Origin: Mycobacterium sp. UM_WGJ
Lineage (GTDB): Bacteria > Actinomycetota > Actinomycetes > Mycobacteriales > Mycobacteriaceae
NCBI RefSeq assembly: GCF_000455125.1
Contig: NZ_AUWR01000043.1
Coordinates: forward strand, 1-64,000
Direction: 5' to 3'
DNA: 64,000 bases
In this document: piece after piece, positions 359-29,205 of the stretch
Numbering within the stretch: the stretch's first letter is position 1
Layout: each line of letters opens with the position of its first letter
The notes under the pieces: model-generated
What the model was told of the DNA's origin: nothing
Seen by the model: only the letters and a program-made list of their open reading frames with translations
The model's database searches: none
Program-made: the position numbers and the translations under genes

Positions 359-458
359 TGTAGGTTCTCACGATCCGTGTCATATGGCGACGTGCTGAAC
401 TGCGGCGATGCAGAACGTCTCACGTGATGTCATCTGGCTTTGTCTCAAGGTCGTGTCA
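359..458. repeat. Transposon left end with three TnsB-site-like motifs
   Basis: Starting from TGTAGG, inverted copies of the end motif lie at 366-382, 418-432 and 443-458; each reads TGACA(C)...TGAGA on the minus strand. The outermost copy starts 7 bases from the tip, the same offset as at the right end. Three dispersed sites are what Tn7 has at its left end. Binding by the TnsB encoded here is inferred. Confidence 0.85.
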
Positions 459-544
459 TTTCTTCGGCCCCTCTTCGCTGCAACCCGCCCACGCGGATTC
501 TGCAGTCGGCCGCAGGATGAGAGAAGGCTTGCCATCCATCGTGA

Positions 545-2089
545 CTAGCGACTCTCATCGACGACCCATGGGCCACCCGCGAGCAGCTCCCGCGTGTTTG
601 CGAGGTGATGCCCGTACGATGACGAATAGCCGTAGCCCTCTTGCAGTGTGGCAGCGTCGAATCCCGCCCTGTTGAGTAGGTTCGTCCGCAACACCCATGT
701 GATCGAGTAGCTCAGCGCGATGAGTAGATCCAGAAATTGCCTGTCGTCGACGTGATCAGGGAGCGACGGCTGATGCGCCATGAGATTACGCGCCGTTGAC
801 ACAGCATCTGGCCAATCTGCGAATCCTGCAACAATATTCGGAATAGACAGACGGGCATCGGCAATCAGGTCAGCCATCCGGCTTCTGAACGTCTGGTCGT
901 TGATGTGTCCGAATGCCTCGGTGACCGCCTTGCTGAACTCGGCGCGGTCCTCGTCGGTGAAGTCGGGTCCGTCCATTTCTGGAAGCGCGGCGTTACGTGC
1001 ACGACGGCACATCTTCTTGATCTTGCTGTCGGACAGGCTTGTGACACGCCTATTCTTGTCTCTGAAAAGGCGGCGGTGTAGTCCTTCGGCCACCGCGACG
1101 AGCGTGAGCACCTGCGCCTCAAGCGTAGCGCCTTGTAGGCTGTCTACGACTGCAGCATCCAATCCCTGTGTTTCACTGCGGAAATCAATCCACGTTGCGA
1201 ATCTCTTGGCAGTGAGGTAGCGGGTGTCAAGGAGGATGTGGCTAGGTTCCGCTACGGATTCCCGGCCCCTATGTACATCACGCCATGGCCCGTCCGCTAC
1301 GAGCTGGACCTGAAGGCCGACGGCGGCCGCGTCGTCCTTCGTAGCCAACTGCGTGATCGTCGTGACGGCGTTGATCACGCCAGAGTCGAAGTGGTCGAAC
1401 GTCATCGGGTCCGAATTCGTGAACTCGATCCACCGTTCCCCCTGGCCGCCGCAGTACGTGCGTAGGAGGCCGCCGTCAGCCGTTTGTGCCACATCCTCGG
1501 CCGCATCCCACCAGGAAGGCCCGACTACCTGAAACCTGACGGCACGGTACGTCTGATCGGCAGTGACCAGATCGCCACTGAGGGCGTACCTCGCTCGGAA
1601 TTGTTGGCTTGCCTCACTAGGGTCGCGCAAGAATTCGAGGCGGCGAGTGTCGCCCTGCGCATGAACCAGCGTTACCGGTGTCCCATCGGCAAGTTCCCCA
1701 TGGATCGTCCTCGGCTGAAAATCGGCTACGAGATCCTCTGGGTCACTCGAGCGGGTAACCAGCGGGTGGCCGCTAGCTAGCCGAGAGACCGAGAACTTAC
1801 GCTCGGCGAAGATCGCCTTGTCTGTCACCAAGATCGGACGCTCGTCGCCGCCAGCGAGCAGTTGGCCCGACGTCCGACGCTCAGGTGTGTCGATCTGCCA
1901 GAACGTGCCATCCGACTGTTCCACCCGACAAGCATGCACTGCACCACCGACACAGCCGTGCTGCGATTTCAGAATAGCGGCGACTTGAACCCAGGCCCCG
2001 AAACGCCCGGCGGGCAACTTCACGGACGCCCGTGCGGTTTCGAGCAGGCTCGCCGTCGACGCGCCAACAATCGCACGAAGGCGAGCCAT
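545..2089 (-). CDS. ApeA-like HEPN anti-phage protein
   Basis: A 514-residue frame. The N-terminal half resembles the ApeA N-terminal beta-rich domain (GTFWQIDTPERRTSGQL, then alternating strands). The C-terminal third is helical and holds RNLMAH, the R-N-x3-H motif of HEPN ribonucleases. ApeA-family proteins are known single-gene abortive-infection defences that probably cleave RNA after phage sensing. The first about 55 residues look unlike the family, so the true start may be the GTG at 1924 (459 residues). It is the first gene inside the left end, a usual place for Tn7 cargo, and follows mmpL on the same strand after a 507-bp gap. Family assignment is from motif and layout only. Confidence 0.7.
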   Translation of the reverse strand: MARLRAIVGASTASLLETARASVKLPAGRFGAWVQVAAILKSQHGCVGGAVHACRVEQSDGTFWQIDTPERRTSGQLLAGGDERPILVTDKAIFAERKFSVSRLASGHPLVTRSSDPEDLVADFQPRTIHGELADGTPVTLVHAQGDTRRLEFLRDPSEASQQFRARYALSGDLVTADQTYRAVRFQVVGPSWWDAAEDVAQTADGGLLRTYCGGQGERWIEFTNSDPMTFDHFDSGVINAVTTITQLATKDDAAAVGLQVQLVADGPWRDVHRGRESVAEPSHILLDTRYLTAKRFATWIDFRSETQGLDAAVVDSLQGATLEAQVLTLVAVAEGLHRRLFRDKNRRVTSLSDSKIKKMCRRARNAALPEMDGPDFTDEDRAEFSKAVTEAFGHINDQTFRSRMADLIADARLSIPNIVAGFADWPDAVSTARNLMAHQPSLPDHVDDRQFLDLLIALSYSITWVLRTNLLNRAGFDAATLQEGYGYSSSYGHHLANTRELLAGGPWVVDESR

Positions 2090-2596
2090 CCGTTCTCAGT
2101 GCCGAGATCCTCGCCGCGACGTCACCTCAACCACGCAACCACAGGAGGTCGCGCTGCACATCCATGGTGTGATGTGATTAGAGCGAACTAATGGTTACCA
2201 CCGGTTTTCGACCACCGGAGCGGTTACGCCCTATACGGGGGGCGTTCGCGATCTGCGTTAAAGGTAACGCCGCCTACCACGGCGGATATCCTTGCCGGCG
2301 ATGGCCTTGGTGCTGTCCGTTGTCGTTCTATCTGAGGCACCCGGGACCAATTGACCTGCGGTGCTTCAGATCAAGTGACAACCGGTAACCGATGTTTTGC
2401 CATTTAGACTGGGGTAAGTCGACTCTCGTGGCGGCGAACGAGCTTGGTCGGGTGTCAGTTGTCCCTGGAGAGGCGTCGCCTGTGGGGGCAGGCGCGGGAG
2501 GATTCGGAACGCCCGGTCCAGCGCGCGGCCGGGATTTGTTCGCCATCACCGTCAGCGGACACTGCTTGGTTCCGGCTGGGATCTACGATCAGCAAC
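2090..2596. other. Non-coding gap between mmpL and the ApeA-like gene
   Basis: I see no convincing gene here. A short hairpin at 2477-2494 (arms CGCCTG/CAGGCG) could end mmpL transcription. The promoter of the ApeA-like gene should lie between about 1925 and 2300, but no -10/-35 pair stands out. Confidence 0.4.
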
Positions 2597-5500
2597 TCAT
2601 GCGGCCCGCCGGCTGCGATGGCGGTGCCGCACGTTGGGCCACCAGCTGGCTTCGCGCAGCAGTGTGGCGATGGCGGGGACGGTGAGGGTGCGCACCAGGA
2701 AAGTGTCGAGGAGTAGCCCGCAGCCGATGATGAGGCCGGCCTGGATCATGATGGCTATCGAGCCGGTGGTGAGGCCGAACATGCTGGCGGCGAAGATTAG
2801 GCCGGCTGAGGTGATGACGGAGCCGGTCTTGGCGACGGTGCGTAGTACGCCTACGCGGATATTGGGTCCGGATTCTTCGCGCAGCCGTGAGACGAGCAGC
2901 ATGTTGTAGTCGGCGCCGACTGCTACCAGGATGATGAACGCCAATAGCGGTACCGGCCAGGCGATGTCGTATCCGAGGCCCCATTGGAATATCAGAACGC
3001 CGATGCCTAGTGAGGCCAGGTAGTTCAACACGACGGTGCCCAGCAGGTACAGCGGGGCCAGTACGGCTCGCAGCAAAACCATGAGGATGAGCCCGACAAT
3101 GAGCAGGGTGGCGATGGCCAGTTGGGTGAAGTCCGCCCGCAGCAATCGCTGGATGTCGGAGTTGACGGCGGGGAACCCGGCAACCGAGGCGGTGGCGTCG
3201 GCCAGTGAGGTGTTGGGGCGCGCGGCGTTGGCAACGTCGACGATCTCGTGTGCCAGGCGGATTGCTGCGCCACTGTAGGGGTCGGGGGTCGATTCGATGG
3301 CAAAGCGTGCGGTTTTGCCGTCGGCTGACAGGAATTGTTTCGCTACATCGGCGAATCGGCGGTTCTCGAAGACGTTGGCGGGCAGGTAGAAGCCGCTGGC
3401 GGAGTCCGAGGAGGCGCTGGCGCGAGCGGAGTTCTGTAGCTGGGTAGCAATTTGGCTCATCCCGGACAGCAGTTCGATGTTGCTGTCGGCCAGTGTGTGC
3501 ACGCCGGTCGCCAGTGCTTGGGCGCCCGAGGCGAGTTGGCTGATGCCGTCTTGGAGTCGACTGATGTTGCCGGCCAGATCAGCGGGTTCACCGAGGGTTC
3601 CGAAGGCCTTGTCCAAGGCGGTGACCGCGTTTTGGACATTGGCGAGGGCGCCGGCCACGGTGGCATTGGTGTCGGGGTTGTAGTGGTCACCGAGGTCGGC
3701 GACCTCGGTGAAGAATCCGCTGTCGCGCAGGCTCACCAGAATCTGAACTTGATCGCGGATCTGGGTGCACTGCGGTGTGGTGACGCACCACGGGGAGGTG
3801 TTGAGGGCGGCGACGAGGGGGTCGAGGATTGCGATGGCGTTTTGGGCTTGTTCAGCCAAAGGTCGCAGCCCGGGGCCCGATTGGATGGCTTGGTCGACGG
3901 CCGGGGCGGTCGCTGAAAGCTGTTGCAGCAGGGGTCGGAACAGCTGGACCTGACTGCCGACAGAGTCGCTGTGTTCCAACATCGAGGTCAGTGGTGTCAA
4001 TGCGCTGCGCAGGGTGGTGTCAAGCTGAGCGAGCCCGCCGGCGAGTTGGTCGGCGCCGTCGGTGAGCTTGGTGAGATCGTCCTTGCGTTCGTTGCCATCG
4101 GCGACGGCGCCAGCCAACTTGTCACCGATCTGGCCGTTCTGCCACGAGAGTTGGGCCTGCTCGAGGCGCGCTCCGGTGGGCCGGGTGACCCCGGACACTT
4201 TGGTGATACCCGGGAGCTGGGAGATGCGGGAGGCCATTTCGTCGAGGTCAGCCAGCCCCTTACCGGTGCGCATGTCGGTGGGGTTTTCCACGACCAGGAA
4301 TTCGGGGATGACGATATCTTTGCCGAAGTGGCGGTCCAGCAACTGGTAGCCCTGGTTGCTTGCGGTGTTGGTGGGCTGGCCTTTGCGGTCGTCGTAGCTG
4401 ATTTTCATCGTCGTCGCGGCTCCTGCCAGGGCCAGCAGGATGACCAGGCTGATGATCAGAAACCGGCCGGGGCGCCGGACCACCGCGACCGCGACGCTGT
4501 TCCAGTACCGGCGGGTGCGATCGGATTTGGGTTCGCCGATACCACGTTTGGCGGCCAGCGCCAGCACCGGCGGCAGCAGCGTGACCGTGGCTGCGAATCC
4601 CACCAGCACCGCGACCGCGCACGCCGGGCCGAGCGCGGCGAACACGCTCAGGCGGGCGAAGACCATCGCCAAAAACGCGAGCGCGACGGTGGCCGCCGAG
4701 GCCAGGATCACCCGGCCGATGCTGGCTGTAGCGTGGATAACGGCCTGGTCGGCGGGCACCTGCGCGCGACGCTGCTCGTGATAGCGGCTGATCAAAAACA
4801 CCGTGTAATCGGTGCCCGCGCCCAGCAGGATCGCTGTCATAAACGCCACGGTGAACTGCGAGACAGGCATGCCCAGCTCGCCCAGTGCGGACAGTACACC
4901 GCGCCCGACGGCCAGGCTTACCCCGATCACGAGCAGCGGCAGCAGTGCGGTGAACACCGACCGGTACACGATCAGCAGGATCAGCGCGATCAAACCCGCA
5001 GTCGCGATCGAAATCAGCAGCAGGTCATGCTCGGCAGAAGCGATCATGTCACTGAACGTCGCCGGTGGCCCCGTCACATACGCCGTGGTCGACGTGCCGG
5101 CGAACACCCCAGCGGCGATGTCACGCACCGCCTGCACGGAGGCGGCCGCGGCGGGATCACCCAGCGTGCCGGCCACACCCACCGGCAGATACCACGCCTG
5201 GTGGTCCTGGCTGACCGCGTGGGCCGCGGTGACCGGCTCGGATAGCAGGTCTTCAACCAGCAAGACGTGATCGGTGTCGGCGTTCAGCCGCGCCACCAGC
5301 TGCTCGTAGTGCTGCCGCGCCACGAGAGTCAACCCGGCGGGGTCTTCCATCGCGACGAACACCATCGTTTTGGAACCCTGTTCGCCGAACGCCGCGCTCA
5401 TGTGGTCCACCGTTTGAAATGACGGCACATCGTGCGGGAGCAGGTTCACCGACTGCTGCCGCACCACCGTCTCCAGCTGCGGAAACAGCAGCGCCAGCAC

Positions 5501-5677
5501 CACCGCAACGCCGACCCATGCCCCCATCACCAGCGCCTTGCGCCGCACAGTGAACCCAGCCAGCGCCGCCAGTCGCGCGCTGTACTCGCTGGAATCCGCT
5601 GGAAGGGTCGAACGGCTATTGCGCGTCAGCAGTGTCGCCGTGGTACCCGAGAAGTCCCGATCGCCGTCGGCCACCAC
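2597..5677 (-). CDS. MmpL-family RND transporter (cargo copy)
   Basis: A 1026-residue inner-membrane exporter of the MmpL/HpnN branch of RND transporters, which move lipids or drugs using proton flow. Membrane segments follow an N-terminal cytoplasmic stretch (ALVMGAWVGVAVVLALLF). Two repeated halves carry the family signatures GAGTDYTVFLISRYHEQ and [18 protein letters not shown], separated by a periplasmic loop rich in Gln/Leu/Ala heptads. GTG start at 5677; a GGAGG lies very close, so the start may be a few codons on. It lies 111 bp downstream of the DUF6188 gene on the same strand, and a TetR gene faces away beyond an operator-like palindrome, suggesting TetR-controlled efflux. Unusual as Tn7 cargo. 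Substrate unknown. Confidence 0.9.
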   Translation of the reverse strand: MVADGDRDFSGTTATLLTRNSRSTLPADSSEYSARLAALAGFTVRRKALVMGAWVGVAVVLALLFPQLETVVRQQSVNLLPHDVPSFQTVDHMSAAFGEQGSKTMVFVAMEDPAGLTLVARQHYEQLVARLNADTDHVLLVEDLLSEPVTAAHAVSQDHQAWYLPVGVAGTLGDPAAAASVQAVRDIAAGVFAGTSTTAYVTGPPATFSDMIASAEHDLLLISIATAGLIALILLIVYRSVFTALLPLLVIGVSLAVGRGVLSALGELGMPVSQFTVAFMTAILLGAGTDYTVFLISRYHEQRRAQVPADQAVIHATASIGRVILASAATVALAFLAMVFARLSVFAALGPACAVAVLVGFAATVTLLPPVLALAAKRGIGEPKSDRTRRYWNSVAVAVVRRPGRFLIISLVILLALAGAATTMKISYDDRKGQPTNTASNQGYQLLDRHFGKDIVIPEFLVVENPTDMRTGKGLADLDEMASRISQLPGITKVSGVTRPTGARLEQAQLSWQNGQIGDKLAGAVADGNERKDDLTKLTDGADQLAGGLAQLDTTLRSALTPLTSMLEHSDSVGSQVQLFRPLLQQLSATAPAVDQAIQSGPGLRPLAEQAQNAIAILDPLVAALNTSPWCVTTPQCTQIRDQVQILVSLRDSGFFTEVADLGDHYNPDTNATVAGALANVQNAVTALDKAFGTLGEPADLAGNISRLQDGISQLASGAQALATGVHTLADSNIELLSGMSQIATQLQNSARASASSDSASGFYLPANVFENRRFADVAKQFLSADGKTARFAIESTPDPYSGAAIRLAHEIVDVANAARPNTSLADATASVAGFPAVNSDIQRLLRADFTQLAIATLLIVGLILMVLLRAVLAPLYLLGTVVLNYLASLGIGVLIFQWGLGYDIAWPVPLLAFIILVAVGADYNMLLVSRLREESGPNIRVGVLRTVAKTGSVITSAGLIFAASMFGLTTGSIAIMIQAGLIIGCGLLLDTFLVRTLTVPAIATLLREASWWPNVRHRHRSRRAA

Positions 5678-6439: not shown

Positions 6440-7177
6440 GTGAGCAGCCGGCTGGAGTTGGGCCACGACGATGGCAATGACGACATCGACCCCCGCCGGA
6501 TCCGGTCCCGCAATCGCCTACTGGACGCAGCGGCCGCATTGCTCACCAGCGGCGGCATTGAGGCCGTCACCATCGACGCGGTCACCAAAGCCTCCAAGGT
6601 GGCTCGCACCACCCTCTACCGCCATTTCAACAACTCGTCGCAGTTGCTCGCAGCGACCTTCGAGCGGCTGCTACCTCAAGTCACCCCGCCCACACCGGCC
6701 AATGGAACGCTGCGCGAACGGCTCATCGAACTGCTCACCCGCCAGGCCGCCTTATTCGGCGACGCCCCGCTGCACGTCACCGCGCTGGCCTGGCTCGCCC
6801 TGGGCCCCACCGCAACCACCGATCACACCAGCGGTGACCACGCCCCCAGGGCGCTGCGCGCACGAGTCATTGACCAATACCGACAACCCTTCGACGCCAT
6901 CCTGCAAAGCGCCGAAGCTCGCGCCGAACTCGGCGACTTCGACGTCGAACTCGTACTGTGCCAACTCATCGGGCCATTCGCCTTCGCGCGAATGACCGGC
7001 CTGCGAACCATGACTGCCCACGACTGCACACGCATCGTCGACGACTTCCTCGCCGCCCACCGTCACAACGACAGCGAACCCGCAACCACACAGGCCGGCA
7101 ATAATTCCACCGCAATTCAGGCAGCAAATAGTGCCTCAGGTCAAACGAGAACGGACACCCGCGCTGGCCGTGGCTGA
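6440..7177 (+). CDS. TetR-family transcriptional regulator
   Basis: 245 residues with an N-terminal TetR helix-turn-helix (IDAVTKASKVARTTLYRHF, about residues 36-55) and a helical C-terminal ligand-binding part. GTG start. It is divergent from the DUF6188-mmpL pair, and the 216-bp gap holds a perfect 15-bp inverted repeat, so it most likely represses itself and the mmpL unit. The last about 30 residues are polar and low in complexity. Ligand unknown. Confidence 0.88.
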   Translation: MSSRLELGHDDGNDDIDPRRIRSRNRLLDAAAALLTSGGIEAVTIDAVTKASKVARTTLYRHFNNSSQLLAATFERLLPQVTPPTPANGTLRERLIELLTRQAALFGDAPLHVTALAWLALGPTATTDHTSGDHAPRALRARVIDQYRQPFDAILQSAEARAELGDFDVELVLCQLIGPFAFARMTGLRTMTAHDCTRIVDDFLAAHRHNDSEPATTQAGNNSTAIQAANSASGQTRTDTRAGRG

Positions 7178-7877: not shown

Positions 7878-8430
7878 GACTCGTACCCGACGTGTTCACG
7901 CGTCGTCGAAAACCACCACAGCCCTGGATAATTGCTCTGTCTACGAAACGACGGGAATCCGCGGATAGGTGAGTAGTCCAACTCGAAGGTCACCGCGGCG
8001 CACTCCGCTAGCGGCAAGCGCGAGTGACCTCAGGTGGAGTTGAATTCAAGCTCAACACTACCGTTGACCTGCGGCCATAACGCTGCCGGAGACGTACGCA
8101 CCTAAATGACGGTGTCGGCCGTGCCTCGGATAACTTGGCAAAGACACGCCGATACCTCAGATGCGAAGGCAATACCCAACATCGGATGTCAACGGACAGG
8201 TGCGTCGCCAGTGAACGACGACCACTGGATTTACTTGTTGATGGCGGTTCACGAACCGGCACTCCGCCGGCCGATCTTATTCGTCACAGTGACGATAGCG
8301 TCCCGCTCCTCCTGCGCCGAGTGCCCGGCAGCCGACAATCAGCACCGTCAGACGCGCTCCGCCAGTCCCAACGGTCGTCATGGCCATGCGGTAATATCCG
8401 GTCGAAACCAACAAGTTGACTTGGGGCCGT
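7878..8430. other. Gap without a supported gene upstream of the GHKL-ATPase gene
   Basis: No frame here has convincing composition. An imperfect palindrome around TTGAATTCAA (8037-8053) could be a regulatory site. G+C begins to fall near 8040 and stays low through 11.9 kb, marking the two-gene unit that follows as a separate acquisition. Confidence 0.4.
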
Positions 8431-9513
8431 ATGGGTCAGATCGCAGGTTCGAGGGCAAATCCCGCACACTCCGTGGAGGTTAGCCAGGCAGCGACGGCCG
8501 CTGACGTGCTGGCGGTTGAGCGCGCGCTCAACTCAATCGTCAGTGCAGACCCCGCGGCCTCAGTTTCATTCCAACTGGCCAAGATCACGGGCCACGGCCG
8601 GAACCGAGTGTCACCAAAATGGGGACCCGTGCTAACGAACATCCTCCTCGATCGCTTGACGAAGTTTGGCCCCATCACGTTGGCTCTTCCTACTAGCGAG
8701 TCCGCCCAACGCCAGATTGCTCGATCAGGCCTGCTGTTCGCTCTATCGAGGCATCCAGGTCTGGCAGTCCATGGTGGCGATCTCCACACGCAGACCCACC
8801 TATCGAAATGGTCGAGGGACTGGGCGCCAACGGATTTCGACCAGACGCTCTTCTCCATTCCAGGGGAGAATGATGCCGACGATCCACAGGACTTGGACAC
8901 CGATCTTGTTGCATTCCTTAACCCGAACTGGAGCCCTGCAGATTCTTCCTCGGATGACGTCGATTCCGTCATCTACCCTTGGCTACGGAAACTACTCTCA
9001 AAAGCGCGTATAACCGACGTGACCCTTCGCAGTCAGGTCTTGCGCGATATGAGCTTCGCGACCAGCGAGTTACTGAACAACGTTCGGGATCACGCGCGTA
9101 TCGGATACCACGGAAATTGCGCGCTGACGTTGTTTGCCACAGGATCCTCAGTGTCGGACAGCCGGATCTACTTGAGCGTTGTAGACGACGGCGTCGGCAT
9201 GGCAACTACCCTGCAAGAGCGGGCGACTCAGTCGCTTCCGGACAGAGAACTTGTCGAAGCTGCATTCTCAGGAAACCTACCGCGACGTCACCGCGGCCGA
9301 GGCGAGGGCCTGTCGATCGTGCGGGCGATTGCCGACCGATACAATGGGAGCCTCTTTGCCGCGACTGGCCCCTCAGTAGAGGGTGCGATTGTCTACGAGC
9401 ACGAATCGACTGAGAAATCCGGTTGCGAGTATGTCGAGGGTTTAACTGTCCATGGTACCGTAATTGTGTTGTGCCTACCCACCGCCCAGATAGCCGCTGA
9501 TACAGAGAGCTAG
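8431..9513 (+). CDS. GHKL (HATPase-type) ATP-binding protein of a two-gene unit
   Basis: About 360 residues. The C-terminal half holds the Bergerat ATP-binding fold: N box ELLNNVRDH (about 213-221), G1 box VVDDGVGM (about 250-257) and G2 box RGRGEGLSIV (about 287-296). There is no histidine-kinase phosphoacceptor or sensor domain; the N-terminal about 190 residues are unrecognised. The ATG at 8431 was chosen; a TTG at 8416 or a later GTG is possible. It is followed 12 bp later by a 791-residue PRTase-like protein, so the two are surely one operon. Base composition is clearly lower in G+C than the chromosome. Lying in a transposon-borne defence island, it is a candidate ATP-dependent sensor or switch of an anti-phage system. 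Confidence 0.8.
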   Translation: MGQIAGSRANPAHSVEVSQAATAADVLAVERALNSIVSADPAASVSFQLAKITGHGRNRVSPKWGPVLTNILLDRLTKFGPITLALPTSESAQRQIARSGLLFALSRHPGLAVHGGDLHTQTHLSKWSRDWAPTDFDQTLFSIPGENDADDPQDLDTDLVAFLNPNWSPADSSSDDVDSVIYPWLRKLLSKARITDVTLRSQVLRDMSFATSELLNNVRDHARIGYHGNCALTLFATGSSVSDSRIYLSVVDDGVGMATTLQERATQSLPDRELVEAAFSGNLPRRHRGRGEGLSIVRAIADRYNGSLFAATGPSVEGAIVYEHESTEKSGCEYVEGLTVHGTVIVLCLPTAQIAADTES

Positions 9514-9525
9514 TCACGCGCTCCC

Positions 9526-18305: not shown

Positions 18306-20065
18306 CCCTCCACCTCGCGCAGCAGGTCCATGATCCTCGCGACCTGCTTCTCTAGGTCCGCGTCGATCTCGGCGAGGGGGCGGGGCGGAATGTACTTGTA
18401 GAAGTGCCGGGTGAACGGGATCTCGTAGCCCACCTTCGTCTTGGCGGTGTCGACCCAGGCGTCCGGCACATGCGGCAGCACCTCGGCGTCGAAGTACGCT
18501 TTGATCGTCGCCGCTCGACCCGCATCCCCGGCGGTGTTGCCGCCGTAGGTGAACGGGATGTTTTCGGTGTCGCGCAGCTTAGAGTCCGGCTTCGGGTTAC
18601 CCTTGCGGTCCGTCGACACCTTCCCGGTCTCGGTCAGCAGCGGCCGCTCGACCGTGACCGTCCAGTACGCGAAGTCGCTGGCGGTGAACACTTTCGAGTA
18701 TTCGGGATCGGCCTCGTCGAACGCGTCGTACAGGCTCATGATGCGGTCGCGCGCGTCGGCGTCGAGCTCGCGGCTTTTCGCACCGAGGCTCTTGCGCATC
18801 TTGGTCCAGAACGAGGTGGCGTCGATCAACTGCACCTTGCCGACCCGCTCCGGACGCTTCGTGTTATCCAAGATCCAGATGTAGGTGGCGATGCCGGTGT
18901 TGAAGAACATGTTCGTCGGCAGCGCGACGATCGCCTCCACCAGATCGGACTCTAGGAGCCACTGCCGGATCCGCGACGGGCCAGACTCGGCGGCGCCGTT
19001 GAACAGCGGCGAGCCGTTGAGAACGATCCCTGCCCGCCCGCCACCGTCGTGTGCCTGCCGCATCTTCGACGCCAGATGTGACAAGAACAGCATCTGACCG
19101 TCGCCGATCGCCGGCAGCCCGTGCGAGAAACGTGAATTCTGTGCCAGTGCCTCCTTTTTCACCGATTCCTGCGAGGCCTTCCAGTCCACGCCGTAGGGCG
19201 GGTTGGACATACAGAAGTCGAAGGTGCGGTCGAAGAACAGGTCGTCGGCCAGGGTGTCGCCGAGCTTGATGTTCCCGGCGTCCTGGCCCTTGGCGATCAT
19301 GTCGGACTTGCAGATCGCGTAGGACTGGTCGTTGATCTCCTGCCCGTACAGCCGCAGCCGCGCCTCCGGGTTGCGTTCCAGTAGCCGCTCTTCCGCGACG
19401 GACAGCATCCCGCCGGTTCCAGCGGTCGGGTCGTAGATGGTGCGCACCGTGCCCGCTTCGAGCAGAGCCGCGCTCTCCTCCGCGAACAGCAGATCCACCA
19501 TCAGCCGGATCGCATCGCGCGGGGTGTAGTGCTCGCCGGCCTCTTCGTTGGAGGCCTCCGCGAACTTGTAGATCAAGAACTCGAACAGGTCGCCCATCTC
19601 GGCGTTCGACATCACATCGGGGTGTAGGTCCACCTCGGCGAACTGCGAGGTCACCAGGTACAGGCGGTTTTTCTCGTCCAGGGTGGCCAGCTCGTTCTCG
19701 AACTTGAACCGCTCGAAGACGTCGATGTTCGCGGAGAACCCGGTGATGTAGTCCATCAGGTTCGCGCGCAGGCCCTCCGGGTCCTCCAGCAGGGTCTTGA
19801 AGTCGAAGGCGCTGGTGTTGTAGAAGGTCAGGCCGGTCTTGCGCTTGACCTGCACGTCCAGGGCTCCGCCGGCGTACTTCTCGGCGAGGGTCCGCACCTC
19901 GTCGCGGGTGGGTTCGACCACGCAGTCCAGGCGACGCAGGATCGTGAACGGCAGGATCACGCCCCCATACTGATGCGGCTTGTACACACCGCGGAGCTGA
20001 TCGGCGATTCCCCACACGAAGTTGCCCAGCTTGCTCAAACCCGATCTCCCTTGACGGTCCTGCAT
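18302..20065 (-). CDS. hsdM: Type I DNA methyltransferase subunit
   Basis: 587 residues, an N6-adenine methylase that marks host DNA and forms the core of the type I complex. An N-terminal helical domain (NFVWGIADQLRGVY) is followed by motif I DPTAGTGGML (S-adenosylmethionine binding) and catalytic motif IV NPPYGVDW (near residue 288). First gene of the operon hsdM-hsdS-hsdR-DUF262 gene. It is divergent from the HEPN gene, with 81 bp between them that must hold both promoters. Confidence 0.95.
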   Translation of the reverse strand: MQDRQGRSGLSKLGNFVWGIADQLRGVYKPHQYGGVILPFTILRRLDCVVEPTRDEVRTLAEKYAGGALDVQVKRKTGLTFYNTSAFDFKTLLEDPEGLRANLMDYITGFSANIDVFERFKFENELATLDEKNRLYLVTSQFAEVDLHPDVMSNAEMGDLFEFLIYKFAEASNEEAGEHYTPRDAIRLMVDLLFAEESAALLEAGTVRTIYDPTAGTGGMLSVAEERLLERNPEARLRLYGQEINDQSYAICKSDMIAKGQDAGNIKLGDTLADDLFFDRTFDFCMSNPPYGVDWKASQESVKKEALAQNSRFSHGLPAIGDGQMLFLSHLASKMRQAHDGGGRAGIVLNGSPLFNGAAESGPSRIRQWLLESDLVEAIVALPTNMFFNTGIATYIWILDNTKRPERVGKVQLIDATSFWTKMRKSLGAKSRELDADARDRIMSLYDAFDEADPEYSKVFTASDFAYWTVTVERPLLTETGKVSTDRKGNPKPDSKLRDTENIPFTYGGNTAGDAGRAATIKAYFDAEVLPHVPDAWVDTAKTKVGYEIPFTRHFYKYIPPRPLAEIDADLEKQVARIMDLLREVEG

Positions 20066-21638: not shown

Positions 21639-23924
21639 TCATGTGGCGACCTTTGCGCTATTCCTCGCGCCTCCGCGCGGTCGCAACGGGACGCCGTAGG
21701 TTTTCGCCCACCGGGCCATGGTCGTCGTGCTGACGCCGCGTTCACGTGCAAGGTCGGGTAACGGGCGTTGGTGGTCGACGTATTGGGTGTAGAGCCAATT
21801 GGCATCGACGGTGTACTTGGTTGCTTTGCCGGGTTTACGTGTCTCGATCTGGTAGTCGGCGGCAAGGCGAGCGACGGTCTGTCGGCTGACGCCGGCCTGA
21901 TCCGCGATCTCGGCAAGGCTCATCCCGCAGAGTTCGTACCGCTCGATGAAGGCCTCGCGGGGGTATGCCTCCTTGGCGCGGCGGTAGGCGTTGAGGTCGG
22001 TGGCTGCGGAAGGTGTTGGGTGGCAGGTGAGGAGGTAACGGACCGTGTCAAGGTCTGCGCCGGCATCTTCGGCGGCGCGGCCGATGGTCAGTCCCGCCTG
22101 GATGCCGCGGTGTAGGGCGGCGAGGTCGACGGCGTCGGGGTTCTGGCCCGGCAGACGTAAGCCCCCCAGGAAGTCTGTGTCCGGCTCGTAGTGCACCGGT
22201 TCGGCCCGGACGCCTTGCTCGGCAAGGAATTCCAGTGCATGGTCGTCGAGTGCGTCGCTGAGTTCCGGGGTGAGATAATAGGGGAAGTCGGCGATTTTGG
22301 TCCGTAGGGCGGGGCAGATGCTCTGGCCGCTGATAGGCATACCGGAGATGCGCTCTTGTAAATAGAACCGGGCCACTTGGGCGCGGGCCGACCCGCGGCT
22401 GGTGGCCCCGGTTTCGCGGCAGATGCGCTGCCAGGTGTCGTCGGGCAGCAGGTTGTCGTAGTTGAGACGGCGGCGCCGCGAGTAGTCGATCGGGACTGTT
22501 GCGCCGGCGAGATTTTCGGCGAGGGCGTCGATTGCCTTGCTGATATCCGTCCAGTCGGGGTGTTTGTTGAGCAGTTGGAGAACGCGTGAGACGGCATGGT
22601 CGTCGAGTGGGCTGTTGAGTCGGCGGGTGAGCGGACCGAGTTTGGTCTTGGTGTCGACGAGCAGGACTGCGACCGATAGCGCGGGTCGCAGCTGCCGCAG
22701 ATGACTTCCAGGTATGGATAGTCGCAGGGCGACGTTCTGCCACAGTGAGGTCGGCAGTTGATCGATCTGCTCGTCGAGGTCGGCTAGATTCCGTTTCGGG
22801 ATTGCCGGCCAGCTGCTGACGGTTCGGTATCGCAGTTGATCGCTGGGTTTGAGGCTCGGGCCAAGTGCGGCAAGCTGCACCGCGCCAGAAACACCGCCGG
22901 TCCACAGTAGATGCGTAGTGCATGGGTGGGCGCGGCGTGAGCGCATCGCGGTGATCAACCACCTCAGCGACTGTCCGGCGGTTGGTACATCTGGTTGTTC
23001 CAGACAGTGCAGGGCAGTAATGACTCCCACTGCGGTCAGGCTCACTGCCTCGGGCACCTGAAAGGCAAGTTTCTTGGTCGGGCTGCGGTTACGTGCGGTC
23101 GGTAGATGGGGATGGTCTTGCTGATACGCGGTCAGCAGGTCAGTGCCGATGATCGGTTCGAGTTCCGACGGGCTTGCATAGGTGAGCGCCCGGATGGCGA
23201 TTGCTCGGATATCGGCAAGGACGCTGGCCGCTGATTGTGGGTCGCACGCGTACACACCGCTGTTGATGATGTCGGCGGTGATGATCTCGTTGATCCGGCG
23301 TTGGGCGGACAGGATGCCATGATGTTCGTCGTCGAAGGTGAGGGCTTTGGCTGTGGTCAGGTCGGCACCGCAGCGCTCATCCCTGGCTGTGCGGTTTTCG
23401 GCTGGAGCTGCGCAGTAGCCCGGTGATGGAATGGACCTGCTCCATAGCTGTCGACTTCGGGGCCGGGTCATGCAGGCTGGGCAGGCATCGACCAGCAGGC
23501 AGCTGTGCTTGAGGCAGGCAAACGTCCATCCCAGCCGCCAGGCCAACTGCCAACGACCACCGGATTCAGCGAGGCAGTGCGGACAGTAGCGTGAGCCGGC
23601 CCGCGGGCCCCAAGGATAGGTTCTGTCGAGCCCACCGGTGGCGGTGTCAGTTGCCAGGGCGCGGCCTTCAAAGTGCGACAACGTCATTGCTCGAATGCTT
23701 GCTGAGTCGACGGTCGTCGCTGTGGTCAGCGCATGACATTGATCCGGTGTCAGATGCACCATCCACCGGGGGACCCAGTGGGGGGTCCATCCATCGAGAC
23801 CGATAGCCGCTACAAGATCCCCCCAGCTGGTCTGGGTTCGGTGCGCGAGTGCTTCCAACCAGGAGTCGAGTGCTTCGCCTGCGATCGGGTCGACGTTGAT
23901 GGGGATGCGTCGGATGTCGCTCAT
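21639..23924 (-). CDS. tniQ: TniQ/TnsD-type target-selection protein
   Basis: 761 residues. The N-terminal TniQ domain begins MSDIRRIPINVDPIAGEAL with a zinc finger (YCPHC at 113-117, then ACLKH and ACPAC). The long C-terminal part ends in helix-turn-helix-like units (EIADQAGVSRQTVARL and DLARERGVSTTTMARW). In Tn7, TnsD binds a fixed chromosomal site and recruits TnsC. The large C-terminal DNA-binding region here suits a site-specific TnsD and, given the insertion point, it probably reads the 3' end of dnaB. ATG start overlaps the tniB stop as ATGA. The frame is open further upstream but inside tniB. Confidence 0.9.
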   Translation of the reverse strand: MSDIRRIPINVDPIAGEALDSWLEALAHRTQTSWGDLVAAIGLDGWTPHWVPRWMVHLTPDQCHALTTATTVDSASIRAMTLSHFEGRALATDTATGGLDRTYPWGPRAGSRYCPHCLAESGGRWQLAWRLGWTFACLKHSCLLVDACPACMTRPRSRQLWSRSIPSPGYCAAPAENRTARDERCGADLTTAKALTFDDEHHGILSAQRRINEIITADIINSGVYACDPQSAASVLADIRAIAIRALTYASPSELEPIIGTDLLTAYQQDHPHLPTARNRSPTKKLAFQVPEAVSLTAVGVITALHCLEQPDVPTAGQSLRWLITAMRSRRAHPCTTHLLWTGGVSGAVQLAALGPSLKPSDQLRYRTVSSWPAIPKRNLADLDEQIDQLPTSLWQNVALRLSIPGSHLRQLRPALSVAVLLVDTKTKLGPLTRRLNSPLDDHAVSRVLQLLNKHPDWTDISKAIDALAENLAGATVPIDYSRRRRLNYDNLLPDDTWQRICRETGATSRGSARAQVARFYLQERISGMPISGQSICPALRTKIADFPYYLTPELSDALDDHALEFLAEQGVRAEPVHYEPDTDFLGGLRLPGQNPDAVDLAALHRGIQAGLTIGRAAEDAGADLDTVRYLLTCHPTPSAATDLNAYRRAKEAYPREAFIERYELCGMSLAEIADQAGVSRQTVARLAADYQIETRKPGKATKYTVDANWLYTQYVDHQRPLPDLARERGVSTTTMARWAKTYGVPLRPRGGARNSAKVAT

Positions 23925-25045
23925 GACGCTCGCACGCTGACTCGTGTGGTGAGCTTGCCCGCTTGCAGGGCGGACTGCAGTTCCTGGCGGGCTTTCTCTG
24001 AGGCTTCGTCGTTCTTCACCCGGTCGAGTAGGTCTTGGGTGAGCCGTTCGGCCCCGGTGCGCACGGCGCGTTGGCAACTTCGGTTGATCAGCGTGATCAG
24101 TGATCCAATATGCCCGGTGGATCGGGCATAGAGGTAGTCGGAGAGCTCATCGGCGATCATGCCCGGGTGACTGTCGGCCAGGACAATCCGCTGCTCCAGG
24201 GTCAACAGGAGATCACGCCATCGTTTGCGCTCTGCCTTGGTTTTCACGGTGAATGCGTCCATGCCGAGCTTTGTTGTACGCCTTCCCGTTTGGGCGATGA
24301 TCGCATCCTGGTAGGACGATCCCTCCGAGAACAGCCCGTGCTTGGTCAGCCCAACGCCGATGTAGATGATGGTGACCGGGAATTCGTTGGCGATGTATTT
24401 GAAGTGGTTGCTGATCTCCACACCCTGGGTGTTGCGCCAGCGCAGGAAGTGCAGGTCGTCGATCATCAACAGGCGGGTCTGGCAGGCCAGTACGCAGTCC
24501 AGGGCTCGGTGGGCCAGCTGCGCGGCGGTCCCGCGATGGGTGCCGGGGTGCCCGAAGTAGTCGAGCATCGCTCGGTTGAAATCGACCATGCCCGTGTTGC
24601 CGGTCAGTCCCACCCGACACACGGGGATTCGCCGGTGCCCTCCTGGCGTTGCCGATCCGCGTTCGGTGATTTCGCGGCGGTGAAAGTCGCGGGCGAAGGC
24701 CAGGGCTGCGGTGGTCTTACCCAAGCCGGGGAATCCGTCAATGGCGACAGCACTTTTGGGTTTGTCGCCGGTTTGATGGTTGCTGTCGACGATGTCCCAG
24801 AGTTGTTCGTGCAGCTCAGCGAGTTGCGGTGTCCGCAAGGGTCCGAGGTTGGCATGCCAGGTGCGTCGTTGGGCGTTGTAGTCCATCAGCGCGGCCTCGC
24901 CGAGTGCCTTGATCCCTGCACGGGTCAGCGGTTCGGGACGGGTCAGCACCGGGGCTTCGGCGAAAGCGAAGAATCCTTCGTTGCGCGCCAACGTGAGATT
25001 GTCCAGGTTCGCCGGGTGTGGCGGCGGCTGCACCGCGGCAGTCAT
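23921..25045 (-). CDS. tniB: TniB/TnsC-type AAA+ transposition regulator
   Basis: 374 residues. AAA+ ATPase with Walker A GFPGLGKTT (about 102-110) and Walker B LLMIDDLHFL (about 190-199). TnsC-type proteins polymerise on DNA and join the target selector to the transposase. The start is the second of two ATGs (25045), because GGAGG at 25050-25054 lies correctly ahead of it; it overlaps the tnsB stop as ATGA. The family size (330-380 residues) is normal. Confidence 0.92.
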   Translation of the reverse strand: MTAAVQPPPHPANLDNLTLARNEGFFAFAEAPVLTRPEPLTRAGIKALGEAALMDYNAQRRTWHANLGPLRTPQLAELHEQLWDIVDSNHQTGDKPKSAVAIDGFPGLGKTTAALAFARDFHRREITERGSATPGGHRRIPVCRVGLTGNTGMVDFNRAMLDYFGHPGTHRGTAAQLAHRALDCVLACQTRLLMIDDLHFLRWRNTQGVEISNHFKYIANEFPVTIIYIGVGLTKHGLFSEGSSYQDAIIAQTGRRTTKLGMDAFTVKTKAERKRWRDLLLTLEQRIVLADSHPGMIADELSDYLYARSTGHIGSLITLINRSCQRAVRTGAERLTQDLLDRVKNDEASEKARQELQSALQAGKLTTRVSVRAS

Positions 25046-27186
25046 GCGTCCTCCCATGCGGTGGCGTAGAAGTCGTCAGGGTCATCGCTGCTGTCATCGT
25101 CTCCGCACTCGTCGTCAGCTGGCGGTTCAGCGCGGTGGCAGTCGGGGGCTTCCGCGCCCCGACCGCCTGTTACCTCGTCAGGCAATGCCTGTTTCAGGGA
25201 GGACAGGCTCCGAACCGACTCTTGCGGGCTATCGGTTGTAGCACAGAGCAGTTCGTCTTGTCGGGATTGGCGCAGCGCCAGGCGCCGTTCGGTTGGGGTT
25301 TTGCCCAGCCCGAGGTTCCACCGTTCCAGCAGCAGTTCCATCGCGAGTTGGTCGTTCGGATAGGTGCAATGCTTCCTTGCCAGTCGCCGGCCGAAGGCAA
25401 GTGTGTCCTCGCCGAAGGGTGCCTTGAGCATGCCGGCGTGCTCCCACATCAGGGTGTGCCACGTCCGGTTGTGCGGATCACGAAAGTAGACGCGAGAGAT
25501 GTCATCGGGGTGGTGATGGACGGGCCATAGCCCACCGGGGTAGGGGCTGCGTTCGTTGCGATAGAGGTCGAGGGATGGCCCGTTGTATCGGCGGAGACGG
25601 ATCTCGACGCCGTAGTGCTGGATGGTGCGCTTCTCGACGGCGAGGAACTCGTAGGCAAGATCGGGGTCTTGCGGGGCCTCGATGTAGCCGGCGCGGGCAA
25701 GACCGTGCTCGAACATGGTCGCCGGGGACAGGTCCAATCCTGGAAGTCCTGGCTCGACCAGTCCATCGTGAGGGCGTCGGTGGTACACCACCGCAATCCA
25801 CTCTCGGATGATCGCTTCGAGTTCATCGATGTAGAAGTGCGCCTCATCTTCCGGGGCCAGGCCGCGGGAATGGACATCCGGGCCTTTATAGCCGGGGAGG
25901 TACTGGAGCAGGTCTTGTCTAATAGTGAGGAAGAACCGTTCGACGGGACCCTTGTCACGCCCCATACGCAATCGTGCGGGTTGGATCGAGATCCGCATGC
26001 GTTGGCACACACTCGTCAGGTGCTCGGAGACGTAGATTTTGCCGTGGTCGACAATCAGGCTTTCGGGAACGATCACCGGCCCAGCGGCGCGGGTGCCGTC
26101 ACGGTCGATCGCATCGACGTCAAGCAGCACCGATCGAGGGATGCCGTGTTCGGGCCAGGTCGCTTCTTTGGGCCAGCTGGCGGGTGCGGCCGGCGGCCGG
26201 TAGCACTGGTATAGCACCGTCGCGGCGTCCACCGACTTCGTCGACACCGGTGTCAAGCGCAGACCGGTGATGCAACGGGTGTACCAATCCATGCCCACGG
26301 TGAGCTCCACTTGGGTCCACCGCAGGGTGAGGGGATCCATCGCGAAGACATCGAGTCGGGTGGTATCCATCAGCAGGTATTCACCTGGCCGAGTCGGTCG
26401 CAATTTCCCATAGGTTCCCGGATTTCGTTCAGCAATATCCCGGTTACGTTTGGTGCTAAGCCGAAAGGTCGCGTACTTCGCTTCGAGGACAGTCAAGACG
26501 CGAAATGCGCTCGCGCGACTTGGGATTGGTACGGCATCGGGACCGTAGCGGGCCATGACACGGGCGTTAGCATGCTTGATTACCGCGGTCTGCGAGGGCC
26601 GGGATTGATCGACATGTTCCACCATGACCTCGATGGCGGCCTCGCGCCACCGGTCGTCAACCCTGGGTAGATTGCGAACCCGCACCTGCTTGCTTTGGAC
26701 GAGCCCTGCCTCCCCGTGCTGCCGGAATGCGGCCACCATCCGCTGAATGGTGCGCAGTTTGACACCGAGCTCAGCTGCCTTTGCCTTGTACCTGACTGTC
26801 TGCGGCAGGGCGGGGTCGTACTCCGGCCGGGGCTCACCCTTTTCACCCGCTTCTGCGCTGCCACCGCGGTATCCGGTGAGGACCTCGCGGATGTGAGCAG
26901 CGCAGTCCCGGATCCTGACGCGTTCCGACTCACTGATCACCGCCAGGATCGTGGCGGCCACATCCTCCAGGCAGTCTGATGACCCGGATTCGTTGGGCTC
27001 GTCGTGGGGGTGGTCGTGACGGTAGGCCAGAAGTGCGCTCAAAGCAATGCGGCGAATCCGCACCGTACCAACCGTTTTGACGATTGCGCTGTTACCACCG
27101 AATCCTGTGCGGATTTCCACGATCTCGATCAGCTCGCCATAAAAGCTCAGTCGGCTGCCCGGGCCGATGCGGAGGCGTCCCATCAT
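25042..27186 (-). CDS. tnsB: TnsB-type DDE transposase
   Basis: 714 residues. N-terminal helix-turn-helix domains (ELGVKLRTIQRMVAAFRQHG) bind the transposon ends. A catalytic rve core follows with D274 (LLMDTTRLDV), D380 (LIVDHGKIY) and E416 (GPVERFF), the 35-residue D-E gap typical of the fold. A Mu-type C-terminal domain follows. It cuts and joins the 3' ends. The ATG at 27186 overlaps the tnsA stop. All catalytic residues are present, so the transposase looks functional. Confidence 0.95.
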   Translation of the reverse strand: MMGRLRIGPGSRLSFYGELIEIVEIRTGFGGNSAIVKTVGTVRIRRIALSALLAYRHDHPHDEPNESGSSDCLEDVAATILAVISESERVRIRDCAAHIREVLTGYRGGSAEAGEKGEPRPEYDPALPQTVRYKAKAAELGVKLRTIQRMVAAFRQHGEAGLVQSKQVRVRNLPRVDDRWREAAIEVMVEHVDQSRPSQTAVIKHANARVMARYGPDAVPIPSRASAFRVLTVLEAKYATFRLSTKRNRDIAERNPGTYGKLRPTRPGEYLLMDTTRLDVFAMDPLTLRWTQVELTVGMDWYTRCITGLRLTPVSTKSVDAATVLYQCYRPPAAPASWPKEATWPEHGIPRSVLLDVDAIDRDGTRAAGPVIVPESLIVDHGKIYVSEHLTSVCQRMRISIQPARLRMGRDKGPVERFFLTIRQDLLQYLPGYKGPDVHSRGLAPEDEAHFYIDELEAIIREWIAVVYHRRPHDGLVEPGLPGLDLSPATMFEHGLARAGYIEAPQDPDLAYEFLAVEKRTIQHYGVEIRLRRYNGPSLDLYRNERSPYPGGLWPVHHHPDDISRVYFRDPHNRTWHTLMWEHAGMLKAPFGEDTLAFGRRLARKHCTYPNDQLAMELLLERWNLGLGKTPTERRLALRQSRQDELLCATTDSPQESVRSLSSLKQALPDEVTGGRGAEAPDCHRAEPPADDECGDDDSSDDPDDFYATAWEDA

Positions 27187-28001
27187 GAGTTCGGCCCTTT
27201 GCGTAGGACAGCAGTCGATTGCAGAGGTGCATCCAGGTCGGTGGCAATGGCCCCGGACCACAACAGATGACACAGAGCGGGCCGCACCAGTGGAACAGGT
27301 AGGCCAGCATGAGCTGTGAGCGCCTGTTCAATAGTGAGGCCCTCGACGTCGAGGCGGCTCACGGCGTCCAGGACGTCCCTATTGATCCGTCGCTCATCAC
27401 GGTAGCCGGCCAGGAACCGAATGTTGTTCAGCTCAACAGGTGGTGGTTCGCTCCACACCTCGTAGTCCCATCCCAGGTCCTCGATGAGGTGGCGCGTCCA
27501 GGCCAGGGTGTAAGCGACTTTGGGAACGGCCACGCTTTGACGTGGCTTGACGTCGACGACAATCGGGCCGTTTCGGGTACTGAGTAGAAAGTCAGGGATG
27601 TGTCGGCGCCGTTTGCCGTCGACATCGGCTTCGATCAGAAATGGTTGGGCCGCAATGGAGGTGACTGACGGTTCGAAATCGGCGTAGAGCAACCGTGCCA
27701 GTTCCAGGCGGGACTCGTAGATGACGTGGTCGTTCTGAGTCTTCGCCCAGTAGGTTCCCGAGTAGTGCTGCTGGCCATACCACCACCGGAAGGTCCGCCA
27801 CGGGGCCAACGGTGCCGAGAGCACCACAGCGGCATCCACCCAATCAGCGGTCTGGATCTGATCGTCTGTGGTCGTACGAAACGAGATCACGGCGGCACGT
27901 CGATCAACCTGGGTAGGCAGCTCAGGCGTGTGTGCGCCCGCCCGACAGGTCGGCACAGGCGACCCCGTCTTGACAAGCGCGGTCGGATAAGTTGAACTCA
28001 T
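27183..28001 (-). CDS. tnsA: TnsA-type heteromeric transposase endonuclease
   Basis: 272 residues. Restriction-enzyme-like nuclease that cuts the 5' ends of the element so that it moves by cut-and-paste. Catalytic residues are visible: YESRLELARL (E96/E100), HIPDFLL (D137) and VVDVK (K152). The C-terminal helical part is a TnsB/TnsC-contact domain in Tn7. First gene of the four-gene operon. Upstream lie a 16-bp palindrome and a strong hairpin, so expression is probably separately controlled from the small regulators nearer the right end. Confidence 0.93.
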   Translation of the reverse strand: MSSTYPTALVKTGSPVPTCRAGAHTPELPTQVDRRAAVISFRTTTDDQIQTADWVDAAVVLSAPLAPWRTFRWWYGQQHYSGTYWAKTQNDHVIYESRLELARLLYADFEPSVTSIAAQPFLIEADVDGKRRRHIPDFLLSTRNGPIVVDVKPRQSVAVPKVAYTLAWTRHLIEDLGWDYEVWSEPPPVELNNIRFLAGYRDERRINRDVLDAVSRLDVEGLTIEQALTAHAGLPVPLVRPALCHLLWSGAIATDLDAPLQSTAVLRKGPNS

Positions 28002-28117: not shown

Positions 28118-28378
28118 TCAGTCCCGTCTTGTCGGCCCTCCGTTGGCTTCGCCTTGACTGCCCGCAAACGGTTCGCCATGTATTGGCGCCCCTGCGATTT
28201 CGGAAATAGCTGCCTTGCCGGCCATCCGTTCGTAACCCAGGTCGATGAGCCTGGCACCGGCTTCTGACAACGACACGTTCCACTCACGAGCGCACCGATA
28301 AGCAGCCTCAGCGGACGCACGCGGAAGCCGAAACTCCACACGAACTCTGTCCCGAACTCCAAGCTCTGGGCGATCCAT
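28118..28378 (-). CDS. Small ribbon-helix-helix-like protein
   Basis: 86 residues from the ATG at 28378, which has AAGGGGG just ahead. DRVRVEFRLPRASAEAAYRC and WNVSLSEAGARLIDLGYE look like a beta strand plus two helices of the ribbon-helix-helix type, followed by a polar tail. It lies between tnsA and the xre gene inside the right end. Probably a DNA-binding regulator of the transposon. Family assignment is tentative. Confidence 0.55.
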   Translation of the reverse strand: MDRPELGVRDRVRVEFRLPRASAEAAYRCAREWNVSLSEAGARLIDLGYERMAGKAAISEIAGAPIHGEPFAGSQGEANGGPTRRD

Positions 28379-28723
28379 GGGCACCCCCTTCCGCTGTACA
28401 CCCGTTCCGAATTCGGCGGGATGACGGCGTTTCGCCGACGCTATACCGGTATCAAACACCCTGCAGGACAGAAAGTCTCGCCGCTCTGCTGCATCACAAC
28501 CGACGCCGTCGATCAGCCCTACACAATCCGTGAACACGCAGGCGGTCACGTCGCTGTTTAATTAGCGGCAAAAGCCCTGGACACTCCCGCCGCGATCGGC
28601 AAAGTTGCGGAACCCGCAACAGCGACACCACAGATTGTGAGGTTCATCACAACATGGGTCGAGGCGAGGCGGCTGCCGTACGGGGACGTCAACGGACAAC
28701 TCGTCGAGATGTTCCTCCCCGCT
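28379..28723. other. Gap between the two small regulator genes
   Basis: No gene with support. A 29-codon minus-strand frame starting MNLTICGVAVAG and ending at 28558 could encode a tiny hydrophobic peptide but has no ribosome-binding site I trust. Confidence 0.35.
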
Positions 28724-29080
28724 TCATAGGTCGTCGACCTCGTCCCGGAGAGCAACCGCAAAGGCTTCTTGATCAGCGCGCCGCCGGGCCAACTGGTCCG
28801 GCGTCAGACGTGCGTCAGTGGCATCAAGTACGTCATCGTGACCCTCGTAGGGAGCCAGGTTGATCCTGATTTCGAGGTCGACCGCAGCCAGGATGCGCGC
28901 CAGCACAGGCAGTGACGGCTGCCGAGTCCCTGATTCGATACGGGCGATCGTCGACTGCGGCACGCCAGCCAGTTCGGCGAGCTGGCGCTGCGATACACCG
29001 AACTGACTCCGGGCCACCTTCAACAGATTTCCCGCAAGCCGCTCGACATGACCAATTCGCGCGGGCCCCATTCTCGCCAT
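28724..29080 (-). CDS. Xre-family helix-turn-helix regulator
   Basis: 118 residues. A clear Cro/C1-type helix-turn-helix (VSQRQLAELAGVPQSTIARI, about 29-48) is followed by ESGTRQPSLPVLARIL and an acidic, Arg-rich C-terminal tail. It is the first gene inside the right end and has the palindrome GATAGC-N6-GCTATC 8 bp ahead of its start, so it is probably autoregulated and may control the tns genes or restrict movement. It could also be an orphan antitoxin, as no toxin gene is next to it. Confidence 0.8.
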   Translation of the reverse strand: MARMGPARIGHVERLAGNLLKVARSQFGVSQRQLAELAGVPQSTIARIESGTRQPSLPVLARILAAVDLEIRINLAPYEGHDDVLDATDARLTPDQLARRRADQEAFAVALRDEVDDL

Positions 29081-29087
29081 ACCCCAC

Positions 29088-29105
29088 GATAGCTAATCGG
29101 CTATC
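29088..29105. promoter_or_regulatory. Inverted repeat ahead of the xre gene, probable autoregulatory operator
   Basis: GATAGC and GCTATC arms with a 6-base spacer (TAATCG), starting 8 bp from the ATG. Xre-type repressors commonly bind such sites. Confidence 0.55.
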
Positions 29106-29131
29106 ACGTTTTCCCGATACCCCCACCCGCA

Positions 29132-29205
29132 TGACACGGGTTGAGACAGGTGACACGGAGGTGACACCACCGCTGAGAAAGTGACACCAGCGGTGAGACC
29201 CTACA
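29132..29205. repeat. Transposon right end with four TnsB-site-like motifs
   Basis: TGACAC...TGAGA motifs start at 29132, 29151 (weak), 29162 and 29182, and the segment closes with GACCCTACA. The outermost motif ends 7 bases from the tip, mirroring the left end. Four tightly packed sites are the known Tn7 right-end layout. Nearly the same arrangement recurs at 280-354. Confidence 0.87.

Follow-up and report, generated by a model that had tools for sequence, protein, structure and literature searches.

A Tn7-like transposon beside dnaB in a mycobacterium and the 3' end of dnaB as its probable attachment site

A stretch of mycobacterial DNA of 64,000 nucleotides (the window) carries a transposon just past the 3' end of the helicase gene dnaB, which raises the question of whether the element homes to this gene, as Tn7 does to glmS. 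Contig C43 of a 4.47-Mb genome begins with the window; by dnaB and the element, close relatives are Mycolicibacter arupensis, longobardus, and senuensis, so the host is a mycobacterium of that group. An earlier note, made from the letters of the window, had proposed a complete Tn7-like transposon that uses the dnaB 3' end as its attachment site. As set out below, the region is very probably a complete actinobacterial-type tnsA-tnsB-tniB-tniQ transposon that homes to the dnaB 3' end in the manner of Tn7 at glmS.

Borders, transposition genes, and cargo of the element

The borders in the earlier note were reproduced: the tips TGTAGG and CCTACA and the direct AATTG copies are at the positions in Table 1, and the right end faces dnaB. 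The motif TCTCA(3-7)TGTCA occurs at the three left-end sites and, in reverse, at the three exact right-end sites and at 280, 311, and 331, and nowhere else in the 64 kb, whereas 50 single-base shuffles average 0.26 per window. With TGAC at 29151 as a partial fourth site on the right, the earlier description of three spaced plus four packed motifs is a fair one. TGTAGG by itself is not significant (16 in the window vs 10.65 expected), and a looser end-site search with 3 mismatches was not above chance (32 vs 51 expected). The sites resemble TnsB-type arrays in both ends, to which TnsB would bind. In Tn7, the right end likewise lies beside the target gene, and the sites have the same 3+4 layout.

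The order of genes inward from the right end is a small helix-turn-helix gene, tnsA, tnsB, tniB, and tniQ, which bears out the tnsA-tnsB-tniB-tniQ order read previously. A weak match (E 0.024) places the E, D, and K of TnsA in line with those of a solved structure. For TnsB, phmmer gives E 2e-15 to solved TnsB chains with D, D, and E aligned, and its Pfam domain falls slightly under the cut-off (21.2 vs 21.7 bits). The tniQ gene most likely starts at 23924 (ATG) rather than at the first possible start, 24077; the TniQ protein has 761 residues, and the TnsD of Tn7 is shorter. The element thus has a DDE-type TnsB, TnsA, a TnsC/TniB ATPase, TniQ/TnsD, a 5-bp duplication, and site arrays in both ends, by which it is assigned as Tn7-like and complete. 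No second TniQ was found in the genome. No TnsE family was present among the Pfam and NCBIfam matches of the scanned proteins; TnsE has been called weakly conserved in the text of a survey (PMC8649781). Among the Pfam and PADLOC matches of the scanned proteins there were no Cas effector genes, and the element is therefore not classed as a CRISPR-associated transposon. Elsewhere in the same genome, a second TnsB-like gene (33%) is located at G000:C14:40050-41873; the M. abscessus prophages prophiGD05-1, GD15-1, and GD20-1 have relatives at 31-33%, annotated as transposase.

To judge by family matches, the cargo is largely of anti-phage type. The HATPase gene and its 791-residue partner (8416-11901), located in this defence-rich element, are a candidate novel defence pair.

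Table 1. Features of the element and its surroundings in the window
Feature	Position	Strand	Remarks
Right end of a second, apparently older element	280..354	(-)	Same orientation; packed sites 280, 311, 331; interior past contig end
Target duplication AATTG, left copy	354..358		First A doubles as last base of the older end's CCTACA
Whole Tn7-like element	359..29205	(-)	28,847 bp; right end (29205) faces dnaB; basis: tips, 5-bp duplication, end sites, tns genes
Left end	359..464	(+)	Tip TGTAGG; three spaced transposase-type sites at 366, 418, 443
ApeA/HEPN-type protein	545..2089	(-)	Pfam; no PADLOC match
MMPL transporter	2597..5677	(-)	
TetR regulator	6440..7177	(+)	
HATPase protein	8416..9513	(+)	
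791-aa protein without family	9526..11901	(+)	No Pfam, NCBIfam, or PADLOC match
GmrSD-type restriction protein	12049..13848	(-)	
HsdR	13917..17027	(-)	
HsdS	17031..18305	(-)	
HsdM, type I restriction	18302..20065	(-)	
tniQ/tnsD	21639..23924	(-)	TniQ domain PF06527 (1.7e-20) and C-terminal helix-turn-helix pair; proposed reader of the dnaB 3' end
tniB/tnsC, AAA ATPase	23921..25057	(-)	PF05621 and AAA_22 above cut-off; Walker A and B spotted by eye
tnsB, DDE transposase	25042..27273	(-)	Start codon uncertain
tnsA, endonuclease	27183..28001	(-)	Pfam PF08722 and NCBIfam NF033179 (TnsA_like_Actin), above cut-off
Small regulator, HTH_3 (Xre-type)	28724..29080	(-)	Pfam
Right end	29132..29205	(-)	Tip CCTACA; packed sites 29182, 29162, partial 29151, 29132
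Target duplication AATTG, right copy	29206..29210		
Spacer, target duplication to dnaB stop	29211..29218		8 bp
dnaB	29219..30619	(-)	Intact, both DnaB domains, no intein; proposed to provide the attachment site with its 3' coding end

Spacing, recurrence, and arrays at the dnaB 3' end

The insertion had been placed 13 bp past the dnaB stop with the helicase left intact, and both points hold: the tip-to-stop distance is 13 bp, duplication included, and both DnaB domains are encoded. Conservation of the dnaB coding sequence alone gives a 3' end that looks conserved. Loci L061-L090 were obtained with a query holding 256 bp of element end and favour occupied sites, a bias avoided by a pattern free of element interior (tip, 2-32 N, and the dnaB 3' motif TTYRCVAAYATGGC), which was applied to 396 same-genus genomes. 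A tip lies beside dnaB in 95 of them, own genome included, and the reversed-pattern control gave 0. The tip is 22-26 bp from the A of the methionine codon in the NMA motif in 78 of 97 matches (25 bp in the window); of the other 19, 8 are at 13 bp exactly and 11 at further distances in the range 15-33 bp. Among 67 distinct dnaB 3' ends in the loci, a set enriched for occupied sites, 49 have a tip, which is at 22-26 bp in 47.

The mean stop-to-tip distance is 11.6 bp for the 29 dnaB genes with a shorter tail and 8.5 bp for the 20 with one extra codon (p 1e-7), whereas the Met-to-tip distance is nearly equal in the two groups (23.6 vs 23.5, p 0.46). The spacing of the tip tracks the Met codon and not the stop, and the coding DNA is therefore the anchor. 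No clear preference is seen in the five bases where the element inserted (51 different among 53; 0.1-0.27 bit per position); both this tally and the anchor test include L146, whose TGTAGG at 13 bp does not represent a family-1 tip and is followed by a tip of family 2, the second family described below.

TGTAGG stands exactly 13 nt after the Met codon in G388, G134, G242, G030, G393, G148, G382, and G274, and in G242, G030, and G274 a family-2 tip follows 6-10 nt after it. In L115 (G030:C47, near 2300), the tip is 13 nt from Met, closer than usual by approximately one helical turn, and the dnaB stop codon itself appears to come from the element tip.

TniQ relatives (E 1e-20 or better) are present in 77 of the 396 genomes, own included; 60 stretches were taken from 53 of the 77 genomes (119 TniQ rows in total). 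Within these 60 loci, tnsA follows dnaB in 26 and does not in 23; it lies too near a contig end in 5, and 6 have no tnsA. A set of 77 named loci comes from an alignment-based scan (the best 80 of 99 matches), a single-protein scan with the window TniQ having found no relative; the corresponding counts are 31, 26, 5, and 15. Here, a locus is "not at dnaB" when 1.5 kb or more of sequence precedes tnsA and contains no dnaB; the two sets overlap in genomes, and the dnaB-sited counts in both include family-2 members. In the dnaB-sited loci, tnsA is 66-4430 bp past dnaB on the same strand. The dnaB-sited named loci belong to Mycolicibacter, Mycolicibacterium, Mycobacteroides chelonae, several Tsukamurella, Nocardia brasiliensis, a Pseudonocardiaceae strain, Actinoplanes couchii, and a Streptomycetaceae MAG, and in Mycolicibacterium alvei the dnaB used is on a 304-kb plasmid. 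Outside the genus the arrangement is rare: an order sample of 61 included 56 other-genus genomes, of which 0 have a tip at 22-26 bp and one, G427, has it at 18. The earlier note had suggested searching other mycobacteria for the same tniQ beside dnaB, and a dnaB location was found for all of the five closest TniQs (57-76%).

A share of the 95 tip-bearing genomes represents relics or chance. Among 12 chosen because no tns genes were found beside the tip, 8 have no TnsB at E 1e-10, and one, G332, ends 349 bp on. Seven tips were read, six without tns genes and one (L256) with them; end repeats are present at six of the seven, L261 being the one without.

The element might instead insert widely and survive only past dnaB, where a gap between convergent genes is harmless. 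The downstream neighbour is convergent in the relatives read, which makes the gap neutral, and some relatives do sit at other genes. Such survivorship without targeting, however, leaves unexplained the 22-26 bp spacing and its tracking of a codon rather than the stop, the common strand of dnaB and tnsA wherever both were mapped, the repeat insertion at the same point, and the use of a plasmid dnaB, and we consider it very improbable. Use of the dnaB 3' end as the attachment site, as first proposed, is by comparison strongly supported across these genomes by the fixed distance to a coding motif, by recurrence in many genomes, and by a TniQ clade that is mostly at dnaB.

In G166 a convergent reading frame is located approximately 0.3 kb downstream of dnaB; in G069 this frame immediately follows a lone decayed right end, and in G016 and G022 it is found beyond the inserts. 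The neighbour gene of G069, used in order to close the empty site of the window, had no DNA match in the window's own genome in a search that had no positive control. The right end in G069 (L158, 19428-19540) is approximately 95 bp long and is all that stands beside dnaB, without an element following it.

In the window, the site next to dnaB holds a tandem array. The contig stops 358 bp left of the element, and within this space is a second right end, absent from the earlier note, of which 328-354 is an inverted copy of the left tip (89% over 27 bp). This end is 97% identical over 76 bp to the dnaB-side right end of Mycolicibacter senuensis and 83% identical to the window's own right end. Because of its orientation, the element to which it belonged appears to have adjoined dnaB before the present one inserted between them. 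Target duplications were also confirmed in three relatives with arrays at dnaB: GATTT in G181 (M. longobardus), repeated at two successive left ends, TTGTG in G282 (Candidatus Mycobacterium methanotrophicum), and CGACC in G209. Abutting left and right ends occur in G016 as well and, at dnaB or elsewhere, in L186, L194, and L205. The inner junctions of G016 are without the duplication of the first tip, and this genome is counted only for abutting ends; its far junction (44339/44344) was rejected as part of an array, as it is beyond the neighbour gene.

The clustering of dnaB-sited TniQs on the TniQ tree would also follow from one ancient insertion inherited with dnaB without repeated homing. 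Against this, the five-bp sequences differ in nearly every case, the arrays have unlike ends, and two sister species, that of the window and Mycolicibacter arupensis, have the same first 12 bp after dnaB but tips at 13 and 14 bp. A single inherited insertion is hardly credible on these grounds; the insertions at dnaB are repeated and independent.

The dnaB genes of many relatives (L092-L108) are split near residues 246 and 409 in an intein-like manner, while that of the window is unsplit. The inserts are putative inteins, and two kinds of mobile DNA may thus share dnaB as a target.

Copies sited elsewhere and the choice of target

The loci not at dnaB (23 of 60 and 26 of 77) are mostly outside the window's TniQ clade, with three inside (L107, L111, and L114). 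G278 contains three closely similar tns sets (L106, L107, and L256). One is at dnaB, with a tniQ that aligns only in pieces; the other two, with tniQ in one frame, are at the 3' ends of two homologs of phrog_15934, a phage-protein family, which are 50% alike. Closely related tniQ genes at unrelated sites had been named in the earlier note as a finding that would refute homing to dnaB, and two of the G278 copies are in part of this kind, with a TniQ very close to a dnaB-sited one; the third copy is at dnaB. In M. triplex, the 10 kb upstream of a family-2 member contain no dnaB, while its counterpart of like layout in M. ahvazicum does sit at dnaB. A single alternative gene shared by all non-dnaB copies was considered and rejected, as the nearest upstream frames are of different families or none. 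In the distant Streptomyces relatives L242 and L243, the tip is at the end of a glycosyltransferase (Glycos_transf_2) frame in both strains, and this gene is perhaps another attachment gene.

Siting was mapped on one quick tree of 92 TniQs made by one method (FastTree). The dnaB label requires 18 changes, vs 29.3 when shuffled (0 of 500 as low), a statistic inflated by relatedness. Of the 36 rows in the clade of the window TniQ, 25 are at dnaB and 3 elsewhere, 1 belongs to an array behind a dnaB-sited element, and 7 are without a siting call. When 25 dnaB-sited TniQs were compared with 21 sited elsewhere, the largest contrast was found in the last helix-turn-helix (700-755), with an identity of 0.55 within the dnaB-sited group and 0.31 to the others. 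Because this contrast is the strongest, we propose that the last helix-turn-helix reads the dnaB end.

A second, distant Tn7-like family (family 2), whose TnsA, TnsB, and TniB are 24-32% identical to those of the window family, uses the same spot. Its tips are 18-27 bp from Met in 25 of the 396 genomes, with a mode of 23 (8 of 25) and 0 for the reversed-pattern control. Something other than TniQ (TniB, the HTH protein, or replication or transcription by the host at dnaB) could accordingly choose the target, with TniQ as an adaptor only, because the two families share the spot with very different TniQ C-termini and the family-2 TniQs of L148 and L233 are without the second helix-turn-helix. On the other hand, relatives with approximately 40-58% identical TnsB and TniQs of other clades are not at dnaB, and the dnaB label clusters on the TniQ tree. 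We regard selection by another factor as unlikely and favour TniQ as the selector.

Proposed mechanism and comparison with known systems

In the mechanism that we propose, TniQ would act like TnsD, with its C-terminal helix-turn-helix pair binding the last 12 or so codons of dnaB. The bound TniQ would recruit the ATPase TniB (TnsC), and TnsA and TnsB would excise the element and join it approximately 23 bp downstream of the NMA methionine codon, so that the helicase is spared. A newcomer with different end sites could insert again between dnaB and the older element, which would generate cargo arrays. A wider picture is offered tentatively, as one that may well prove wrong. The dnaB 3' end might be a shared mycobacterial hub, used at near-equal spacing (mode 23 bp) by at least two anciently separate families with different selector C-termini; later arrivals would stack into defence arrays, and plasmid copies of dnaB would let one selector serve both a safe chromosomal home and a vehicle to new hosts, replacing the two-pathway design of Tn7.

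A close described group is clade 2 of Benler et al. 2021, which comprises Actinobacteria-dominated Tn7-like transposons that are not experimentally characterised (PMC8649781). The window TnsA matches the NCBIfam family TnsA_like_Actin, and the element may belong to this clade, for which the text consulted names no dnaB attachment site (PMC8649781). Tn7706 of Rhodococcus erythropolis, another genus of the same order, has the same gene set (tnsA, tnsB, tniQ, and tniB) in 19 kb and occurs in nine copies, six of them on plasmids; it differs in that dnaB is absent from the main text of that paper (PMC12915292). Tn6022 is located at comM, which it inactivates, and CAST elements are located at tRNA genes or parE, according to the texts consulted (PMC10293859, PMC11406308). 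These are likewise Tn7-like elements with TniQ-based choice of a conserved gene, whereas in the window dnaB is spared and no CRISPR genes are present among the Pfam and PADLOC matches.

The attachment genes named in these sources are glmS, yhiN, comM, parE, and tRNA genes (PMC11406308, PMC10293859), and the accessible text of another Tn7-like study mentions DnaB as a negative control (PMC10991518). In the open-access literature searched, no description of dnaB as a Tn7-like attachment gene was found. An essential replication gene appears to join the short list of such genes, and a little-studied actinobacterial group gains a target that is concrete and open to test. Because it is conserved across mycobacteria, the homing site could come into use for neutral single-copy integration, and in the arrays one sees defence genes accumulate beside one gene.

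A parallel in mode of insertion is Tn7 itself, in which TnsD binds the last 36 bp of glmS and the element inserts approximately 25 bp from there, at a point where no particular sequence is required and 5 bp are duplicated (PMC2918618). The window element resembles it in its TnsA, TnsB, TnsC, and TnsD-type proteins, in the 5-bp duplication, and in a selector that would read the 3' coding end of an essential gene, and differs from it in being at dnaB rather than glmS, in its TGTAGG tips, and in the arrays formed at one site.
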